Shown here: piece by piece, positions 51,118 to 60,276 of the stretch
Position numbering within the stretch: the stretch's first letter is position 1
Layout: the number at the start of each line of letters is the position of its first letter
Assembly (NCBI GenBank): GCA_011390575.1
Contig: JAABSE010000006.1
Location: forward strand, 1-64,000
Source of the DNA: Sphingobacteriia bacterium
Lineage (GTDB): Bacteria > Bacteroidota > Bacteroidia > Bacteroidales > UBA7960
Reading direction: 5' to 3'
DNA: 64,000 nucleotides
Position numbers and translations under genes: made by a program
The notes under the pieces: model-generated
Database searches by the model: none
Seen by the model: only the letters and a program-made list of their open reading frames with translations
Told to the model about the DNA's origin: nothing

Positions 51118-52173
51118 CTACAAGTACTTTACTGCAGATGCTTTGAAACTTATCCATACTTTTTTGGCGGGGCTTAAATCCAGATTTCGGACCGAATTTT
51201 TACTTACAATCACAGAAAAATCTTCAGCGGTGCTGATTATAAGTTCAGCTCCGTGGTTGAGGGTGATTATTTCTTTGATGAAACCATGGTACTGGTTGGT
51301 GGCACTGGTTTCCAGCTCTTGCTCCGATACGATAATGTCTTCGCCCGGTATCATCAGATGGGTAATGTTTTGTGCTGGTGGTTCTATCACTTTTATGAGC
51401 AGTCCGTTGGGAGTTTTGCCGCGAAACAAACCGTTTTGCTGTTCTTCGGGATGAAAGCTGCATTGGAAAATGTTTTTGATTCCGCTAAACTGTGCTACAA
51501 ACTTAGAAACCGGGTTTCGGAAAACCTCTTCAGGCTTTCCCCACTGCAATAATTCCCCGTTCTCAATCACGGCAATGGTTTTGCTGAGGGTGGCCGCTTC
51601 CATGTAATCATGGGTAACGTGGATAATGGTTTTTCCACTCTGGTTAATTTCCTTCAGCAGATCACGAAGTTCATGACGCAGGGTAACATCCAGGCTGGCC
51701 AGGGGCTCATCGAGGAGTAGAACGGTGGGTTCGGAGGCCAGCGTACGTGCCAGGGCAACGCGCTGGGCTTCTCCTCCTGACAAGGTTCCGGGATGACGGT
51801 TCAGAAGATGAGTGACACGGGCTTGTGCTGCCAGTTTAGCTACCCTTTCCTTTATTTGTTTTCCTGATAACCCTTTTTTGTGTAAGCCGTATGCAATGTT
51901 CTTGCGCACTGTCATGTGTGGAAACAATGCCATATCCTGGTAAACCAACCCCATAGGACGTTTTTGGATGCTCATGGTGGAAATGTTTTCGCCATCAAGG
52001 TGAATGGAGCCTTCATCGGGTGTGATGAGCCCGGCAAGAATTTCCAGCAGCACAGTTTTTCCTGCTCCAGAGAGTCCCAAAAGGGTAAGGTAATCTCCCT
52101 TATTTATACTGAGCGAAATGTTTTTCAGGTGAAAATCTCCCAGTCGCTTGCTTATCTCCTTAATTTCTAACAT
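51118..52173 (-). CDS. ABC transporter ATPase, tungstate/molybdate type
   Basis: A 351-residue ATPase of the ModC/WtpC type. Walker A is GLSGAGKTVLLE (about 33-44), the Q-loop VYQDMALFPH, the signature LSGGEAQRVALART, Walker B VLLLDEPLASLD and the H-loop HVTHDYMEA. Residues after about 230 form a TOBE-like regulatory domain, as in oxyanion importers (HGFIKEIITLNHGAELIIST). Its start overlaps the permease gene by 14 bp, which suggests translational coupling. With the AOR and cofactor genes next door the substrate is probably tungstate or molybdate; sulfate or phosphate are less likely. No binding-protein gene is present nearby. Confidence 0.88.
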   Translation of the reverse strand: MLEIKEISKRLGDFHLKNISLSINKGDYLTLLGLSGAGKTVLLEILAGLITPDEGSIHLDGENISTMSIQKRPMGLVYQDMALFPHMTVRKNIAYGLHKKGLSGKQIKERVAKLAAQARVTHLLNRHPGTLSGGEAQRVALARTLASEPTVLLLDEPLASLDVTLRHELRDLLKEINQSGKTIIHVTHDYMEAATLSKTIAVIENGELLQWGKPEEVFRNPVSKFVAQFSGIKNIFQCSFHPEEQQNGLFRGKTPNGLLIKVIEPPAQNITHLMIPGEDIIVSEQELETSATNQYHGFIKEIITLNHGAELIISTAEDFSVIVSKNSVRNLDLSPAKKVWISFKASAVKYL

Positions 52174-52948
52174 GGTAATTCTTTTGTGAGAGAACTCTCA
52201 TGAATACAAAAACTGCCAGGCAAACCAGAATAAACACTGCCGCCACGGGCCTTGCATAACTCAACCCAAAGGATGCAAATCTTTCCCAGATCAATACGGG
52301 AGTGACCATGGGATGATAGGCAATGATAATAACTGCGCCAAATTCACTCAAACCCCGGGCCCACATCATTACCAATCCGCTCAGTACCGGGCGTTTGGCC
52401 AGGGGAAGCGAAATGGTGAAGAAAACCCGCAGGGGTGATGCTCCCAGGTTCAATGCTGCTTTTTCCAGTTTCTCCGGTACGGCAGCAAAACCATCCCGGG
52501 CAGCATTGATGGCAAAAGGAAGGCTTACAAAGGCCATGGCCACTACAATGCCTGCTACACCTCCCACAAAACTGAATCCTGCCTGCTCACCCGCCTGCCC
52601 AATCCAGGTGCCTCGCGAAATTATTCCCAGCAAAGCAATTCCGGCAGCAGAGTGGGGGATAACAACGGGCAAATCTATCAGCCCGTTTACCAGGCCTTTC
52701 AAAGGGAAATGTTTTCGGGCAAGCAACCAGGCCAGCGGGATGGCCAATATGCCAAAAATGAGGGTGGCACCCATGGATGCAAACAAAGTAAGCCGAATAC
52801 TTTTGGAAACTTCTGTATCCTGAATCGTTTGCAGATATTCTGAGGGACTGGTTCGCAACAATAATCCCAGCAACGGGGCAACAATGAAAAGGATGATCAA
52901 TCCACTGAAAAATATGATGGCAAGTTTCGTGCGCCAGTCTTTTAGCAT
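52160..52948 (-). CDS. ABC transporter permease, tungstate/molybdate type (WtpB/ModB-like)
   Basis: A 262-residue permease with about six transmembrane helices. The first is near residues 9-30 (LAIIFFSGLIILFIVAPLLG). The ATPase-contacting EAA loop reads AALNLGASPLRVFFTISLPL (about 165-185). The segment GLSEFGAVIIIAYHPMVTPV, then LIWERFASFGL, resembles WtpB proteins, which move tungstate and molybdate in AOR-containing organisms. It is first in the transporter pair, and the ATPase gene overlaps its end. The periplasmic binding protein (WtpA/TupA/ModA) is not in the window; it may be encoded elsewhere. Confidence 0.85.
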   Translation of the reverse strand: MLKDWRTKLAIIFFSGLIILFIVAPLLGLLLRTSPSEYLQTIQDTEVSKSIRLTLFASMGATLIFGILAIPLAWLLARKHFPLKGLVNGLIDLPVVIPHSAAGIALLGIISRGTWIGQAGEQAGFSFVGGVAGIVVAMAFVSLPFAINAARDGFAAVPEKLEKAALNLGASPLRVFFTISLPLAKRPVLSGLVMMWARGLSEFGAVIIIAYHPMVTPVLIWERFASFGLSYARPVAAVFILVCLAVFVFMRVLSQKNYHVRN

Positions 52949-53549: not shown

Positions 53550-55349
53550 ATGCACGGTTACAGAGGAAAAATTATAAGAATTAATCTGACAGATCTGAGC
53601 TACAAGCTTGAAGATCTGAATCATGATGAAGCCATGAAGTTTATTGGAGGACGGGGTTTTGGATCAAAAATAATGTTTGATGAAGTGGATCCCAATATTG
53701 ACCCTTTCGATCCTGCCAATAAGATTATCATTGCCACAGGACCCATGACGGGTACACCCACCCCGGCGGGCGGTCGTTATATGGTGGTTACCAAATCGCC
53801 CCTCACCGGCACCATTGCCAGCTCCAATTCGGGCGGTTACTGGGGTGCCGAGATGAAATTTGCCGGCTACGATGCTATGATATTAGAAGGTAAGGCCGCC
53901 AAACCCACCAGTATTTTTATCGAGGATGACAAGATTGAATTCCGTGATGCCAGTGGTCTTTGGGGTAAAACTACCATTGAAACCACCAACGAAGTGATGA
54001 AAGAGGCGCCTGCCAAAGCCAAAGTGCTTTGTATCGGACCTGCCGGAGAAAACCTGTCGAAAATTGCTGCAGTCATGAACGATCTTAACCGCGCTGCCGG
54101 ACGCAGCGGTGTGGGTGCAGTGGTAGGCAGCAAAAATTTGAAAGCCATTGTTATCAAAGGTTCAACAAAACCTTCCGTTGCCGATCCTGATGCCCTGAAG
54201 GAAGTGGTGAAAAGAGGGCGCTCGCAAATCAAAGATAACGGAGTTACCGGTGCCGGGCTACCCACATACGGTACCAACGTTCTGGTGAATATTATCAACG
54301 AAGCTGGCGTTTTTCCCACCAACAACTTCCAGGAAACCTATTTTGACAAGGCCGAAGAAGTAAGTGGAGAAGCCATGGCAGAAAAATTCCTTATCAAGCG
54401 TGAATCCTGCTTTGCCTGCCCCATTGCCTGTGGTCGTTATACCAAAGCAGACGATATTGAAACCGGTGGACCCGAATACGAAAGTGTATGGGCTTTTAGT
54501 GCTGCTTGCGGTGTTTCCGATATGAAGGCTGCCATTAAAGCCAACTTCTGGGCCAATGAAATGGGTATGGACACCATTTCGGCCGGAGTTACCGTTTCTA
54601 CTGCTATGGAATTGTATGAAAAAGGGTTTATCAAAGATGATGAACTCGATGGACTGGGATTGAAATTTGGGGATGGCGACAGCATGGTAGAATGGATCAA
54701 GAAACTGGGTCGTCGCGATGGGCAACTTGCCAGCAAAATGGCTGAGGGTTCTTATCGCCTGGCTGAATCTTATGGTCACCCCGAACTATCCATGAGTGTA
54801 AAGAAACAGGAACTTCCTGCTTATGATCCACGTGGTATCCAGGGACAGGGACTTCAGTACGCTACATCTAACCGGGGAGGTTGCCACGTCAGAGGATACA
54901 TGATTTCTCCCGAAATTCTGGGTCTGCCCGAAAAACTTGACAGAACTGAGCTGAAAGGAAAGCCCGAATGGGTGAAAATTTTCCAGGATCTTACTGCTTT
55001 TATTGATTCCTGTGGCATGTGCCTGTTTACTTCATTTGCCCTTACAGCCGATGATTATGCTGACATGTTTACTGCTGTTACCGGTAAGAAACATACGGCA
55101 GCCGATATTCTTGAAGCCGGAGACCGCATCTGGAACCTGGAAAGAATCTGGAACCTGAAAGCCGGTATCGACCCCTCACAGGATAAACTACCCAAAAGAC
55201 TGCTCGAAGAAGCCATCCCAAGTGGTCCTTCCAAAGGGCAAAGGAGTGGTCTTGCCGAGTTGCTACCTCTTTATTACAAAGAAAGAGGCTGGGACGAAAA
55301 AGGTATCCCCACAGCTGATAAACTCAAAGCATTGGGTGTTCCTGCATAA
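53550..55349 (+). CDS. aor: Aldehyde:ferredoxin oxidoreductase (tungsten pterin enzyme)
   Basis: A 599-residue enzyme. The start at 53550 (MHGYRGKIIRINLTD) is chosen because the track's earlier start would translate through the sigma-54 promoter. AOR oxidises aldehydes to acids, passing electrons to ferredoxin, or can run in reverse. The [4Fe-4S] ligands are C287, C290, C294 (CFACPIAC) and C491 (SCGMC), matching the known spacing. Pterin-binding stretches include NDLNRAAGRSGVGAVVGSKN and GGRGFGSK near residue 33. The cofactor would be tungsto-bispterin. Upstream it has a -24/-12 promoter and two dyads; downstream is a terminator, then cofactor genes. Confidence 0.95.
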   Translation: MHGYRGKIIRINLTDLSYKLEDLNHDEAMKFIGGRGFGSKIMFDEVDPNIDPFDPANKIIIATGPMTGTPTPAGGRYMVVTKSPLTGTIASSNSGGYWGAEMKFAGYDAMILEGKAAKPTSIFIEDDKIEFRDASGLWGKTTIETTNEVMKEAPAKAKVLCIGPAGENLSKIAAVMNDLNRAAGRSGVGAVVGSKNLKAIVIKGSTKPSVADPDALKEVVKRGRSQIKDNGVTGAGLPTYGTNVLVNIINEAGVFPTNNFQETYFDKAEEVSGEAMAEKFLIKRESCFACPIACGRYTKADDIETGGPEYESVWAFSAACGVSDMKAAIKANFWANEMGMDTISAGVTVSTAMELYEKGFIKDDELDGLGLKFGDGDSMVEWIKKLGRRDGQLASKMAEGSYRLAESYGHPELSMSVKKQELPAYDPRGIQGQGLQYATSNRGGCHVRGYMISPEILGLPEKLDRTELKGKPEWVKIFQDLTAFIDSCGMCLFTSFALTADDYADMFTAVTGKKHTAADILEAGDRIWNLERIWNLKAGIDPSQDKLPKRLLEEAIPSGPSKGQRSGLAELLPLYYKERGWDEKGIPTADKLKALGVPA

Positions 55350-55646: not shown

Positions 55647-55871
55647 ATGCAAATCAAAGTAAGATTATTTGCCACTTTACGCGAAGGAAGAGGTAAAGAG
55701 CAGATGATGGACTTCGCCGACATTGCCACGCCACAGGCGATTTTTGACAGGCTGGATATTCCTTCAGCCGATGTGGCCATTTTGCTCATCAATGGTTTCG
55801 ACGGTAAATTTGATCAGCCCCTTAAGGATGGCGACACGGTGAGTATCTTCCCCCCGGTTGGAGGTGGATGA
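55647..55871 (+). CDS. moaD: MoaD/ThiS-family sulfur carrier protein
   Basis: A 74-residue ubiquitin-like protein ending in PPVGGG. The terminal Gly is adenylated by a MoeB/ThiF enzyme and turned into a thiocarboxylate that supplies sulfur to molybdopterin. It starts MQIKVRLFATLREGRGKEQM, typical of MoaD. It is followed 107 bp later by a ThiF/MoeB-like gene, which fits this role. MoaE, its usual partner subunit, is not seen in the window. Confidence 0.88.
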   Translation: MQIKVRLFATLREGRGKEQMMDFADIATPQAIFDRLDIPSADVAILLINGFDGKFDQPLKDGDTVSIFPPVGGG

Positions 55872-55978: not shown

Positions 55979-56659
55979 ATGCAAAAACGATACATCAAGA
56001 ATGAGAATATGCTTTCGCGGGAAGAGAATTTATCTCTGCGCGAAAAGAGAGTACTTGTGGTGGGATGCGGAGGTTTGGGAGGGCATCTGATAGAACAACT
56101 GGCAAGGCTGGGTATCGGGCATATTACCGCCATCGACGGAGATGTTTTTGACGAAAGCAATCTCAACCGCCAGCTTCTTTGCCATGTTGACAATATTGGC
56201 CAGCCCAAAGCGCTTGTTGCCAGAGAACATACTGCCCGCGTAAATCCGGATGTAAAAGTTACTGCCATTCATGCATTTCTGGATGAATCCAATGCAGAAG
56301 AAATCATCAGCGGACATGATGTGATTTGTGATGCGCTGGATAACATGACTACCCGGCTTTTGGTGCAGCAATATGCTGAAAAGCTGCGTATACCCATGGT
56401 TTATGGTGCCATTGCAGGATGGTACGGGCAGGTAACTACCATCTTTCCTGGCGACAATATCCTGGGAAGCATCTACCAGGGGGGAAGCAATAAAGGGATA
56501 GAGCAGGAACTGGGAAATCCCTCTTTTACTCCGGCTCTGGTAGCTTCCATTGAAGTCTCGGAGGTGGTAAAAATTATCATCGGCAGAGGGCAACTGTTGC
56601 GCAACCGCTTTTTGATGATCAATACCCTGGATCAGGAATATGAAGTTTTTGATATTTGA
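55979..56659 (+). CDS. moeB: ThiF/MoeB-family adenylyltransferase (short form)
   Basis: A 226-residue E1-like enzyme that should adenylate the C-terminus of the MoaD-like protein. The nucleotide loop is VVGCGGLGGHLIEQLARLGI (about residues 24-43). The catalytic acidic residue is in VICDALDNMTTRLLVQQYAE. The usual two CxxC zinc pairs of MoeB are absent: the only Cys near the N-term are in VVGCGG and LLCHV, and no CxxC is present. The C-terminal rhodanese domain is absent too. So it belongs to a short, zinc-less branch near HesA/ThiF; the gene symbol is by context. Confidence 0.8.
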   Translation: MQKRYIKNENMLSREENLSLREKRVLVVGCGGLGGHLIEQLARLGIGHITAIDGDVFDESNLNRQLLCHVDNIGQPKALVAREHTARVNPDVKVTAIHAFLDESNAEEIISGHDVICDALDNMTTRLLVQQYAEKLRIPMVYGAIAGWYGQVTTIFPGDNILGSIYQGGSNKGIEQELGNPSFTPALVASIEVSEVVKIIIGRGQLLRNRFLMINTLDQEYEVFDI

Positions 56660-56794: not shown

Positions 56795-57970
56795 ATGATA
56801 TCTTTTGAAAAAGCCCTTGAAACCATATTAGCTTCTGCCCGCTACCTGGGTGATGAACATGTTGATTTTATGGATTCCCTCAACAGGGTGCTGGCCGAAG
56901 ATGTATATTCTGATGTGGATATGCCTCCTTTCGACAAAGCTGCTATGGATGGATTTGCCTGCCGCAAGGATGATATTACCGGTGAACTGGAGGTAATTGA
57001 AACGGTTGCGGCCGGTCAGATACCCCGGAAAAGTCTTGAACCGGGTCAGTGCGTTCGTATCATGACCGGCGCCATGGTGCCTGAAGGAGCCGATACTGTG
57101 CTGATGGTAGAGCAAACCGAAATGACAGGGGAGGAGAGGATACGGTTTACGGGGACTAAAACTACACCCAATATCGCATACAGAGCTGAAGATGCAAAGG
57201 AAGGAGACGTTATGTGGAAGAAAGGGGAGCCTATACTTGCTTCTCACATTGCCATCTTTGCTGCAGTGGGTTGCACCCGGCCCCTGGTAGCGCGGCAACC
57301 CCGGGTGGCTGTTCTTTCTACCGGCGATGAACTGGTAGAGCCCCATGAAAAGCCAGGTCCGGGAAAAATTCGGAATTCCAATGCATGGCAACTCATGGCG
57401 CAGATCCGCAATGTTAATTGTATTGCCAATTACATGGGCATTGTACCCGATACAGAGGAAGAAACAGATACTGCCATCTCCAAAGCGCTGCAGGAAAACG
57501 ATGTGGTGTTGCTTACCGGCGGAGTGAGTATGGGAGATTTTGATTTTGTACCCAAAGTGATGCGCGAAAACAAGGTGGATATCCGTTTTCAGAAGGTGGC
57601 AGTGAAGCCCGGCAGACCCACCGTTTTTGGCGTGACGGAAAAATCATATATTTTTGGCTTGCCCGGAAATCCCGTATCTTCCTTCATCAATTTTGAGGTT
57701 TTTGTAAAGCCCCTGCTTTATAAACTGATGGGTCATGATTACCAGCCTGTTGAGCTTAGCATGCCTATGGCTGCTGATTTCCGGCGCAAAAAGGCTGACA
57801 GGCTTGAGTGGGTTCCCGTAGATATTACCCCCGCCGGAGAAGTATTGCCGGTAAGTTACCACGGTTCCGCCCATATTCATGCCGTTTGTTTGTCCAAAGC
57901 CCTCATGAAAGTGCCCGTTGATACGTTTACATTTGACAAAGGAGAAACAGTACATGTTAGACCCATATAA
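56795..57970 (+). CDS. moeA: Molybdopterin molybdenumtransferase
   Basis: A 391-residue enzyme that inserts Mo (or W) into adenylated molybdopterin. Motifs: FDKAAMDGFA, AAGQIPRKSLEPGQCVRIMT, VGCTRPLVARQPRVAVLSTG (then DELVEP), VVLLTGGVSMGDFDFVPKVM, VAVKPGRPTVFG and LPGNPVSSFINFEVFV. Domain order is as in E. coli MoeA (domains II/I, then III, then IV). In AOR organisms a paralogue often handles tungsten; which metal is used here cannot be read from the sequence. The moaA start overlaps its last 17 bp. Confidence 0.94.
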   Translation: MISFEKALETILASARYLGDEHVDFMDSLNRVLAEDVYSDVDMPPFDKAAMDGFACRKDDITGELEVIETVAAGQIPRKSLEPGQCVRIMTGAMVPEGADTVLMVEQTEMTGEERIRFTGTKTTPNIAYRAEDAKEGDVMWKKGEPILASHIAIFAAVGCTRPLVARQPRVAVLSTGDELVEPHEKPGPGKIRNSNAWQLMAQIRNVNCIANYMGIVPDTEEETDTAISKALQENDVVLLTGGVSMGDFDFVPKVMRENKVDIRFQKVAVKPGRPTVFGVTEKSYIFGLPGNPVSSFINFEVFVKPLLYKLMGHDYQPVELSMPMAADFRRKKADRLEWVPVDITPAGEVLPVSYHGSAHIHAVCLSKALMKVPVDTFTFDKGETVHVRPI

Positions 57971-58754
57971 CCGTAAAATCAATTACCTGCGTATATCTGT
58001 TACCGACAGGTGCAACCTGCGCTGCAGGTATTGTATGCCTGAAGATGGTGTGTGCATGGTAGAGCACAAGGATATTCTTACCTACGAAGAAATACAGGAG
58101 GTGGTGGCAGTTGCCGTACCGCTGGGGATGGATAAAATACGTCTTACCGGCGGAGAACCTCTTGTGAGAAAAGATATTGTTGAGCTTGTGAGGATGATAG
58201 CAGAGGTGAAAGGGGTGAAAGATATTGCCATTACCACCAATGGTGTGTTGCTGGAAAAGTTTGCTCAACCTTTGGCAGAGGCTGGACTGCACAGGGTAAA
58301 TGTCAGTCTGGACACTATGGATCCGGAAAAATTTAACAATATAACCCGGGGAGGGGATATCCGCAAAGTTTTTGCTGGCATTGAAGCTGCCAGACTTGCG
58401 GGGCTCAGTCCCATCAAAATCAATTGTGTTATTCAGCAATCCAGCGATGAACCTGATGCGCTGGCTGTCAAACAATACTGTCTGGAGAATGGGCTTCAGG
58501 CCCGTTTCATCAGTCAAATGGACCTTTCAACCGGGCACTTTGGGATTGTAGAAGGGGGCACTGGTGGCGATTGTACCAACTGCAACCGTTTGCGCCTTAC
58601 CCCAACCGGCAAGATGAAGCCTTGTCTTTTCTCCGATCTTGAATTTGATATTCGTGAGATGGGTATCCGCCAGGCCATAGAAGCAGCCCTTTTCGGAAAA
58701 CCCGAAAAAGGAACCATCAATCTGAGCAATTGTTTTCATAATATTGGAGGGTAA
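57954..58754 (+). CDS. moaA: GTP 3',8-cyclase (MoaA), short form
   Basis: A 266-residue radical SAM enzyme for the first step of pterin cofactor synthesis; MoaA is usually 320-340 residues. The start at 57954 is chosen because homology begins at MLDPYNRKINYLRISVTDRC. The N-terminal cluster has C20, C24, C27. SAM-binding GGEPL and the C-terminal cluster C207, C210, C224 (CTNCNRLRLTPTGKMKPC) are present, and it ends in GG, which MoaA needs. The stretch that normally joins the last barrel strand to the second cluster is about 60 residues shorter here (MDLSTGHFGIVEGGTGGDC). Both clusters and the NRLRL GTP arginines remain, so activity is plausible. Confidence 0.85.
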   Translation: MLDPYNRKINYLRISVTDRCNLRCRYCMPEDGVCMVEHKDILTYEEIQEVVAVAVPLGMDKIRLTGGEPLVRKDIVELVRMIAEVKGVKDIAITTNGVLLEKFAQPLAEAGLHRVNVSLDTMDPEKFNNITRGGDIRKVFAGIEAARLAGLSPIKINCVIQQSSDEPDALAVKQYCLENGLQARFISQMDLSTGHFGIVEGGTGGDCTNCNRLRLTPTGKMKPCLFSDLEFDIREMGIRQAIEAALFGKPEKGTINLSNCFHNIGG

Positions 58755-58834: not shown

Positions 58835-59281
58835 ATGAACAAATTCTCTCATATCGATGATCAGGGCAAGGCCAACATGGTAGATGTAAGTCCTAAGCCC
58901 ATGCAAACCCGCACTGCAGTTGCCCGGGGCTTTATTCGTCTGCAAAAGGAAACGGTAAGGCTCATTGGCGAAAATGAAATGAAAAAGGGCGATGTACTTA
59001 CTGTGGCTGAAATTGCAGGCATTCAGGCAGCCAAAAAAACTTCAGACCTCATCCCATTATGCCATCCGCTGCAGATAACCAAAGCCGATGTGAAGGCTGA
59101 ACTGCAGGAAGAGGGGGTGGAAGTAACAGCAACCTTAAAGTGCATCGGGCAGACAGGCATTGAAATGGAGGCACTCACCGGTGCCAGTGTGGCACTGCTT
59201 ACTGTTTATGATATGTGTAAGGCGGTCGACAAGGAAATGGTTATTGAGCAGGTAAGATTGCTGGAGAAAACCAAAGCGTAG
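58835..59281 (+). CDS. moaC: Cyclic pyranopterin monophosphate synthase (MoaC)
   Basis: A 148-residue enzyme that acts with MoaA to make cyclic pyranopterin monophosphate. Motifs: [40 protein letters not shown] (with active-site Lys and His) and [20 protein letters not shown], then [11 protein letters not shown]. Length is slightly under the usual 155-160, with a short C-terminus. It lies 80 bp after moaA in the same direction. Confidence 0.95.
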
Positions 59282-59340
59282 CAACCGTTTTTTATACCAT
59301 AGACGGAAAATGCTTAAATTTGCAAAAACATAAAAAATCG

Positions 59341-60276
59341 ATGACGCAACAAATAAAAGTCCTTTCGGTAAATATTTCTAAAGAAAAAGGCACCGTTAAA
59401 AAACCTATAGAAGAGATTACCCTCAATCATAATGGCGTAATGGATGATGCCCACAGTGGCCCCTGGCACCGACAAGTGAGTTTGCTGGGCAAAGAAAGTT
59501 TTGATCGCTTTTCTGAACAGGCAGGCAGAGCGCTTGCTTTTGGTGAATTTGCCGAGAATATTACTACCGAAGGGGTAGAACTGGTAAAAACTTCACCCCT
59601 TGATCGGTTTGTGGGCAAAAATGTGGAGTTGGAAATTACCCAGATTGGCAAAGAGTGCCATGGATCCAGTTGTGCCATTTTCAGGGAAGTAGGAAGCTGT
59701 GTCATGCCCAAAGAGGGTATCTTTGCCAGGGTTGTGAAGCAGGGATCCATCAAGCCGGGAGATGTGCTGGAATATGTGCCCAGGGTGCTGCGTTTTCATG
59801 TGGTAACCCTGAGTGATCGTGCCAGTCGCGGGCAATACGAAGACAAAAGCGGCCCCAGGGTGGTTCAACTCCTGCAGGAACATTTTGAAAAAAGACCCCG
59901 TAATATACAAATTGAAACCACCATCATTCCTGACGAATCCTCCAGCCTCTCGCTGGTGCTTGAGAAAGCTTCCTACGAAGAAATTGATGTACTCATTACC
60001 ACAGGCGGCACAGGTATTGGCCCTCGCGATATTACTGTGGAAACCGTTACCCCCATGCTCGACAAAGAGATACCCGGTATCATGGAAATGATTAGGGTGA
60101 AATACGGCGCCAACAAGCCCAATGCGCTGCTGAGCAGGGGAGTGGCCGGGCTGATGTCCGATACTTTGGTTTATACCCTTCCCGGAAGCGTAAGAGCAGT
60201 GAATGAGTATATGGAAGAAATTCTCAAAACCCTGGAGCATCTTATCTATATGCGCCACGGCCTGGATGTGCATTGA
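59341..60276 (+). CDS. MOSC-MogA fusion protein (molybdopterin adenylyltransferase)
   Basis: A 311-residue two-domain protein; start at ATG 59341 (the track starts at TTG 59320). Residues 1-150 are a MOSC domain (ITLNHNGVMDDAHSGPWHRQ; ITQIGKECHGSSCAIFREVG, with the Cys used by sulfur-handling MOSC proteins). Residues about 150-311 are a MogA/MoaB domain that adenylates molybdopterin (RFHVVTLSDRASRGQYEDKS; DVLITTGGTGIGPRDITVET; YTLPGSVRAVNEY). The fusion joins activation of the pterin to a domain that usually handles sulfur or metal-cofactor transfer. It is the last cofactor gene, 59 bp after moaC and 26 bp before the next gene. Confidence 0.9.
   Translation: MTQQIKVLSVNISKEKGTVKKPIEEITLNHNGVMDDAHSGPWHRQVSLLGKESFDRFSEQAGRALAFGEFAENITTEGVELVKTSPLDRFVGKNVELEITQIGKECHGSSCAIFREVGSCVMPKEGIFARVVKQGSIKPGDVLEYVPRVLRFHVVTLSDRASRGQYEDKSGPRVVQLLQEHFEKRPRNIQIETTIIPDESSSLSLVLEKASYEEIDVLITTGGTGIGPRDITVETVTPMLDKEIPGIMEMIRVKYGANKPNALLSRGVAGLMSDTLVYTLPGSVRAVNEYMEEILKTLEHLIYMRHGLDVH

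Follow-up and report, generated by a model that had tools for sequence, protein, structure and literature searches.

A compact, clade-wide form of the radical SAM enzyme MoaA within a tungsten-pterin gene cluster of Bacteroidales

Introduction

MoaA, a textbook example of a two-cluster radical SAM enzyme, catalyzes the first step in the synthesis of the molybdenum/tungsten cofactor. The locus presented here lies in a 64,000-nucleotide stretch of Bacteroidales DNA (hereafter the window) and encodes a MoaA of 266 residues; the canonical MoaAs that we extracted have 316-337. Such a short gene raises the question of whether it is damaged, whether it encodes an enzyme with a changed reaction, or whether it is a functional MoaA that has been streamlined. 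An initial annotation of the window favored an evolved form and suggested that it might be tied to aldehyde ferredoxin oxidoreductase (AOR) systems. No paper describing a short MoaA was found in the open-licence literature.

Results and discussion

Family assignment of the short protein

The window protein scored 294.5 bits against TIGR02666, the MoaA equivalog model (cut-off 284.05), and the best non-MoaA NCBIfam model reached only 71.9 bits, which rules out another radical SAM family. Nine short forms scored against TIGR02666 gave 270.9-301.1 bits, six of them above the cut-off and three below it (270.9, 278.5 and 281.7). Pfam recognized a Radical_SAM domain followed by a partial Mob_synth_C domain (PF06463; 41.0 bits, cut-off 37.4), which covers only profile positions 55-101 of 128, the first ~54 being gone. 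Since this incompleteness is an architectural and not a catalytic feature, we keep the protein in the family as a variant of MoaA. Archaeal MoaA (TIGR02668) is likewise represented by a shorter model, of 303 positions, which the window protein matches at 8e-65; however, the score of 218.8 bits falls short of the cut-off of 325.25, and the match breaks at the same segment. TIGR04317, the tungsten cofactor oxidoreductase radical SAM maturase, is also a radical SAM protein encoded beside AOR, but it is a separate family (69.5 bits for the window protein, cut-off 380). No second, normal MoaA was found in the window genome, which is about 90% complete.

The hallmarks listed in the initial annotation were all present, namely the length of 266 residues, the Cys triads C20/C24/C27 and C207/C210/C224, GGEP (residues 66-69), NRLRL (residues 211-215) and the final GG, which also closes 35 of 35 canonical MoaAs extracted. 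The features of the locus are given in Table 1.

Table 1. Genes and motifs at the short moaA locus, with their positions in the window.
Feature	Position	Strand	Remarks
Wtp-type tungstate/molybdate ABC transporter genes, divergent	51118..52948	-	WtpB-like permease and WtpC-like ATPase
AOR (aldehyde ferredoxin oxidoreductase)	53553..55349	+	AFOR_N and AFOR_C
MoaD/ThiS-like sulfur carrier, GG end	55647..55871	+	PF02597
ThiF/MoeB-like E1 enzyme	55979..56659	+	PF00899
moeA, 3' end overlaps moaA start	56795..57970	+	MoeA_N, MoCF_biosynth, MoeA_C
Short moaA	57954..58754	+	266 aa, ATG start; GTP 3',8-cyclase, compact form; TIGR02666 and AlphaFold/PDB match
Radical-SAM cluster motif C20-x3-C24-x2-C27	58011..58034	+	Invariant in 37 aligned short forms
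Shortened R184-to-C207 segment	58503..58574	+	23 residue steps vs 65-74 in 13 canonical MoaAs; carries GxFxxVxGGxGGxC
Second-cluster motif C207-x2-C210-N-R212-L-R214 ... C224	58572..58625	+	Pairs with S. aureus C261/C264/R266/R268/C278; invariant in 37
C-terminal Gly-Gly	58746..58751	+	Invariant in 37 aligned short forms
moaC, normal length, next pathway enzyme	58835..59281	+	TIGR00581 203.8 bits, cut-off 141.5
MOSC-MogA/MoaB fusion, start codon uncertain	59320..60276	+	MOSC and MoCF_biosynth

Two trims relative to canonical MoaA

Alignment with Staphylococcus aureus MoaA paired residues 3-193 of the window protein with 7-201 and residues 195-234 with 249-289, leaving 46 residues missing between the two blocks (193 pairs with 201, and 195 with 249). 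Set against 13 canonical MoaAs, drawn from Bacteroidota as well as other phyla, the spacing between Arg184 and Cys207 is 42-51 residues shorter. A second trim, of 9-18 residues, lies behind C224, where the window protein counts 43 residues up to its C-terminus versus 52-61 in the same 13 proteins. Thus, the loss of about 60 residues that had been placed before the second cluster does occur at that site, but it is smaller there and is split over two places. The segment is indeed shortened, as had been noted, but it has not been replaced by a wholly new loop: the HFGIV...C stretch aligns with the canonical strand just ahead of the second cluster (S. aureus FGLI...C) and is a remnant of it. In canonical MoaA, the deleted segment forms the first part of Mob_synth_C and comprises roughly a helix and a strand. 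These two trims and the partial Mob_synth_C set the short form apart from canonical MoaA. The two resemble each other in the radical SAM core, both [4Fe-4S] triads, the GTP-site residues, the terminal GG and the predicted fold (S. aureus structures 1TV7/1TV8/2FB3; TIGR02666), and in the placement of the gene beside moaC.

Conservation of the active site and predicted fold

In the alignment, R17, S126, K163, R192, R266 and R268 of S. aureus MoaA pair with R13, S118, K155, R184, R212 and R214 of the short form, and both S. aureus Cys triads pair with those of the window protein. All six residues, both triads and the linker motif GxFxxVxGGxGGxC of the short form are invariant in 37 aligned short forms. 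The six S. aureus residues contact GTP, and three of them, R17, R266 and R268, are altered in the MoaA triple mutant 2FB2 (PDB entry title). Binding of GTP by the second cluster of MoaA is established (review PMC5352715).

An AlphaFold model built from a 37-row alignment (pLDDT 89.2, pTM 0.88) has MoaA structures as its top PDB matches (1tv7/2fb2, query TM 0.78-0.80), the next being BlsE at 0.64, and the short form is confidently predicted to adopt the MoaA fold. In the model, a strand at residues 182-187 is followed by a loop and then by a strand at 212-215. Residues 191-200 are modelled less well (pLDDT 77), and the C-terminal tail is the least certain part (51-66).

We infer from these data that the short MoaA is a functional, streamlined GTP 3',8-cyclase, a reading to which we give a probability of about 85%. 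Its first cluster would cleave SAM, GTP would be held by the second cluster together with the conserved Arg, Lys and Ser residues, and a C3' radical would attack C8 to form 3',8-cH2GTP. This product would be handed to MoaC, encoded by the adjacent gene, and converted into cPMP for a tungsten or molybdenum pterin cofactor. The deleted segment would then be dispensable for the chemistry. The genomic data given below also support this reading: the short form is the sole MoaA found in the window genome and in nearly all short-form genomes, while PF00384 matches were present in 47 of 47 genomes tested and AOR in most short-form genomes. The low dN/dS, the constant MoeA neighbor and the single clade point the same way, whereas the partial Mob_synth_C, the less confident parts of the model, the three scores below the TIGR02666 cut-off and the scarcity of MoaE count against it. 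The short-form clade may provide a natural view of which part of the C-terminal domain of MoaA can be spared, and the protein offers a compact scaffold for study.

Distribution and origin of the short form

The genome that contains the window is a draft of 198 contigs, and we considered whether damage or an assembly artefact had left an in-frame deletion here. Among congeners, the short form was found in 10 of 11, nine of them with 82-92% identity across all 266 residues; the genomes G009 and G004 of the congener draw were without it. Most of the family carried it too, as did several further families of the order. Of 344 genomes drawn evenly across the order, 140 had the short form (a few of them with partial genes) and 4 a canonical MoaA, one of these 4 having both, and the short form was the sole MoaA detected in 139 of the 140. 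Of 62 short proteins extracted, with start codons picked to fit the alignment, 61 have 266 residues and one has 267. In a maximum-likelihood tree of MoaA sequences only, all short forms made up one clade with a support of 100/100, on a long stem branch (0.88 changes per column); this clade weakly adjoined a Clostridial MoaA, the tree containing five sequences from other phyla. The dN/dS ratio among congeners was about 0.03 (0.02-0.05 where it could be estimated, several pairs being saturated at synonymous sites), and the short form is under strong purifying selection.

Independent genomes from many families share exactly this architecture; such recurrence, a single clade and a dN/dS of ~0.03 refute a pseudogene or a sequencing deletion, and leave damage or artefact with a practically negligible probability. 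No normal-length MoaA was found at this locus in close relatives, and the congeners had none in its place. Together with the invariant catalytic residues, these data bear out the proposal of an evolved form rather than damage: the compact MoaA is a real, evolved, clade-wide new form of a known enzyme. The tree shows a single origin of the short form, whose ancestor probably lost the segment, and this form would then have become the standard MoaA of the order.

Sampling of the short form is almost confined to Bacteroidota. A contig scan with exact peptides of the short form recovered close relatives only. No short form was recognized among the best plasmid matches listed, which looked canonical or partial, and viral contigs gave one weak radical SAM match only.

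Gene neighbourhoods

The genes in the window stand in the order WtpC-WtpB (divergent), AOR, MoaD, ThiF, MoeA, MoaA, MoaC and MOSC-MogA. The WtpB-like permease scored 283.5 bits against NF040839, under the cut-off of 340, and the WtpC-like ATPase was assigned by sequence and position. We examined 50 neighbourhoods of the short moaA, in which all counts are lower bounds because several contigs end near the gene. A MoeA-family gene lay immediately upstream in 50 of 50 and MoaC was present in 41, with ThiF/MoeB in 23, Wtp-type transporter genes in 20-22 and AOR in 11. MogA or a MOSC-MogA fusion was common, and MobB, MobA and a ModE-like regulator, named from sequence reading, occurred in subsets. 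The fusion of MOSC to a MogA/MoaB-like domain seen in the window is conserved in many short-MoaA loci.

The missing segment might also be supplied by a separate protein that closes the active site. The clean removal of the segment and the MoeA gene that always adjoins the short moaA would fit such a partner. However, beyond MoeA/MogA, MoaA itself and MoaC in 41, no ORF family was conserved across the 50 neighbourhoods, and no conserved neighbor was a candidate for supplying the segment. We thus consider complementation by a partner very unlikely, though a gene elsewhere in the genome, or a new interface with MoaC, might play that part.

Absence of MoaE from most genomes with the short form

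In the order, MoaE (PF02391) was detected in 18 of the 344 genomes: all 4 that have a canonical MoaA, 13 of the 139 whose only MoaA is the short form, and a single genome lacking any MoaA match. It was undetectable in the window genome and in 126 of the 139 short-only genomes of the order, using a model that matched in 11 of 14 control genomes. No substitute for MoaE was seen near the short moaA in the 50 neighbourhoods. The short-form genomes that lack MoaE still have MoaC, MoeA, MogA and pterin enzymes. Since MoaE is missing from most short-form genomes, the pathway after cPMP is not canonical in them.

This pattern raises the question of whether the short MoaA itself performs a changed reaction, acting on another nucleotide or making another pterin precursor, and thereby opens a distinct tungsten-pterin pathway that does without MoaE. 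The contrast in MoaE content between short-only and canonical-MoaA genomes, the invariant GG-x-GG linker and the long stem branch would all fit, but every mapped ligand of GTP and of the clusters is kept, the MoaC and MogA neighbors are normal, and 13 short-only genomes do have MoaE. Moreover, loss of MoaE has also been reported in Geobacter metallireducens, whose MoaA isoenzymes were described as ordinary (PMC2700814). A changed reaction is therefore unlikely in our view. A broader idea takes the short MoaA for the signature enzyme of a tungsten-pterin pathway that evolved separately. Its genes would have been inherited and moved as one block with MoeA, MoaC, usually the MOSC-MogA fusion, Wtp and AOR, and the pathway would dispense with MoaE, the large subunit of classical MPT synthase, by means of a substitute or a modified intermediate; we regard this idea as doubtful and put it forward as speculation.

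The short moaA gene marks a large, mostly uncultured bacterial group in which cofactor synthesis departs from the E. coli model, MoaE being undetectable. Such a group makes molybdopterin synthesis in these organisms directly testable.

Association with AOR and transfer to another class

Within the order, AOR was found in 118 of the 140 short-form genomes versus 13 of 204 without the short form, with an extreme Fisher value in which shared ancestry is ignored. Elsewhere in the phylum, it was found in 0 of 76 genomes with a canonical MoaA. In a family of another class (f42), 4 of 4 short-form genomes tested had AOR, versus 0 of 5 with a canonical MoaA. The absence of AOR from the 76 canonical-MoaA genomes and the contrast within f42 are more telling than the Fisher value. 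An ordinary MoaA has generally been assumed for archaeal and other AOR users.

AOR was nevertheless undetectable in 22 of the 140 short-form genomes, one of them 99% complete (G036), which indicates that the tie is not obligatory and rules out an exclusive dependence of the short form on AOR. The proposed tie to AOR systems thus holds as an association that is strong in this phylum but not exclusive, given these 22 genomes, an AOR genome with a canonical MoaA only (G467), and AOR lying near the gene in 11 of 50 neighbourhoods; nor does the short form always accompany AOR, a point that the initial annotation had proposed to check. A more fitting description is that the compact MoaA is the standard form of the enzyme in the order and has been inherited together with a set of tungsten-pterin genes.

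In the class of f42, the short form occurred in 5 of 264 genomes, all from two f42 genera, and in the tree the f42 short forms were nested within the clade of the order. The two f42 loci that we read carry AOR, Wtp genes, MoeA, the short MoaA and MoaC together. Given the nesting and these co-located genes, transfer as one block is the simplest reading. The short form would later have entered at least one family outside the class of the order, as part of moeA-moaA-moaC, and in the two loci read AOR and the Wtp transporter would have moved along.

Additional observations

A TIGR04317-like radical SAM gene (345.9 bits, cut-off 380) lies between AOR and MoaD in relatives (L043:6067-7113, minus strand), a likely member of this family occupies the same interval in genome G003, and the gene is absent from the AOR-MoaD interval of the window. 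In one genome, a frameshift or an assembly error has broken the short moaA into two pieces that overlap and lie in different frames (G492:C63:15108-15906). Genome G490 carries two full-length short MoaA genes, on contigs C70 and C111.
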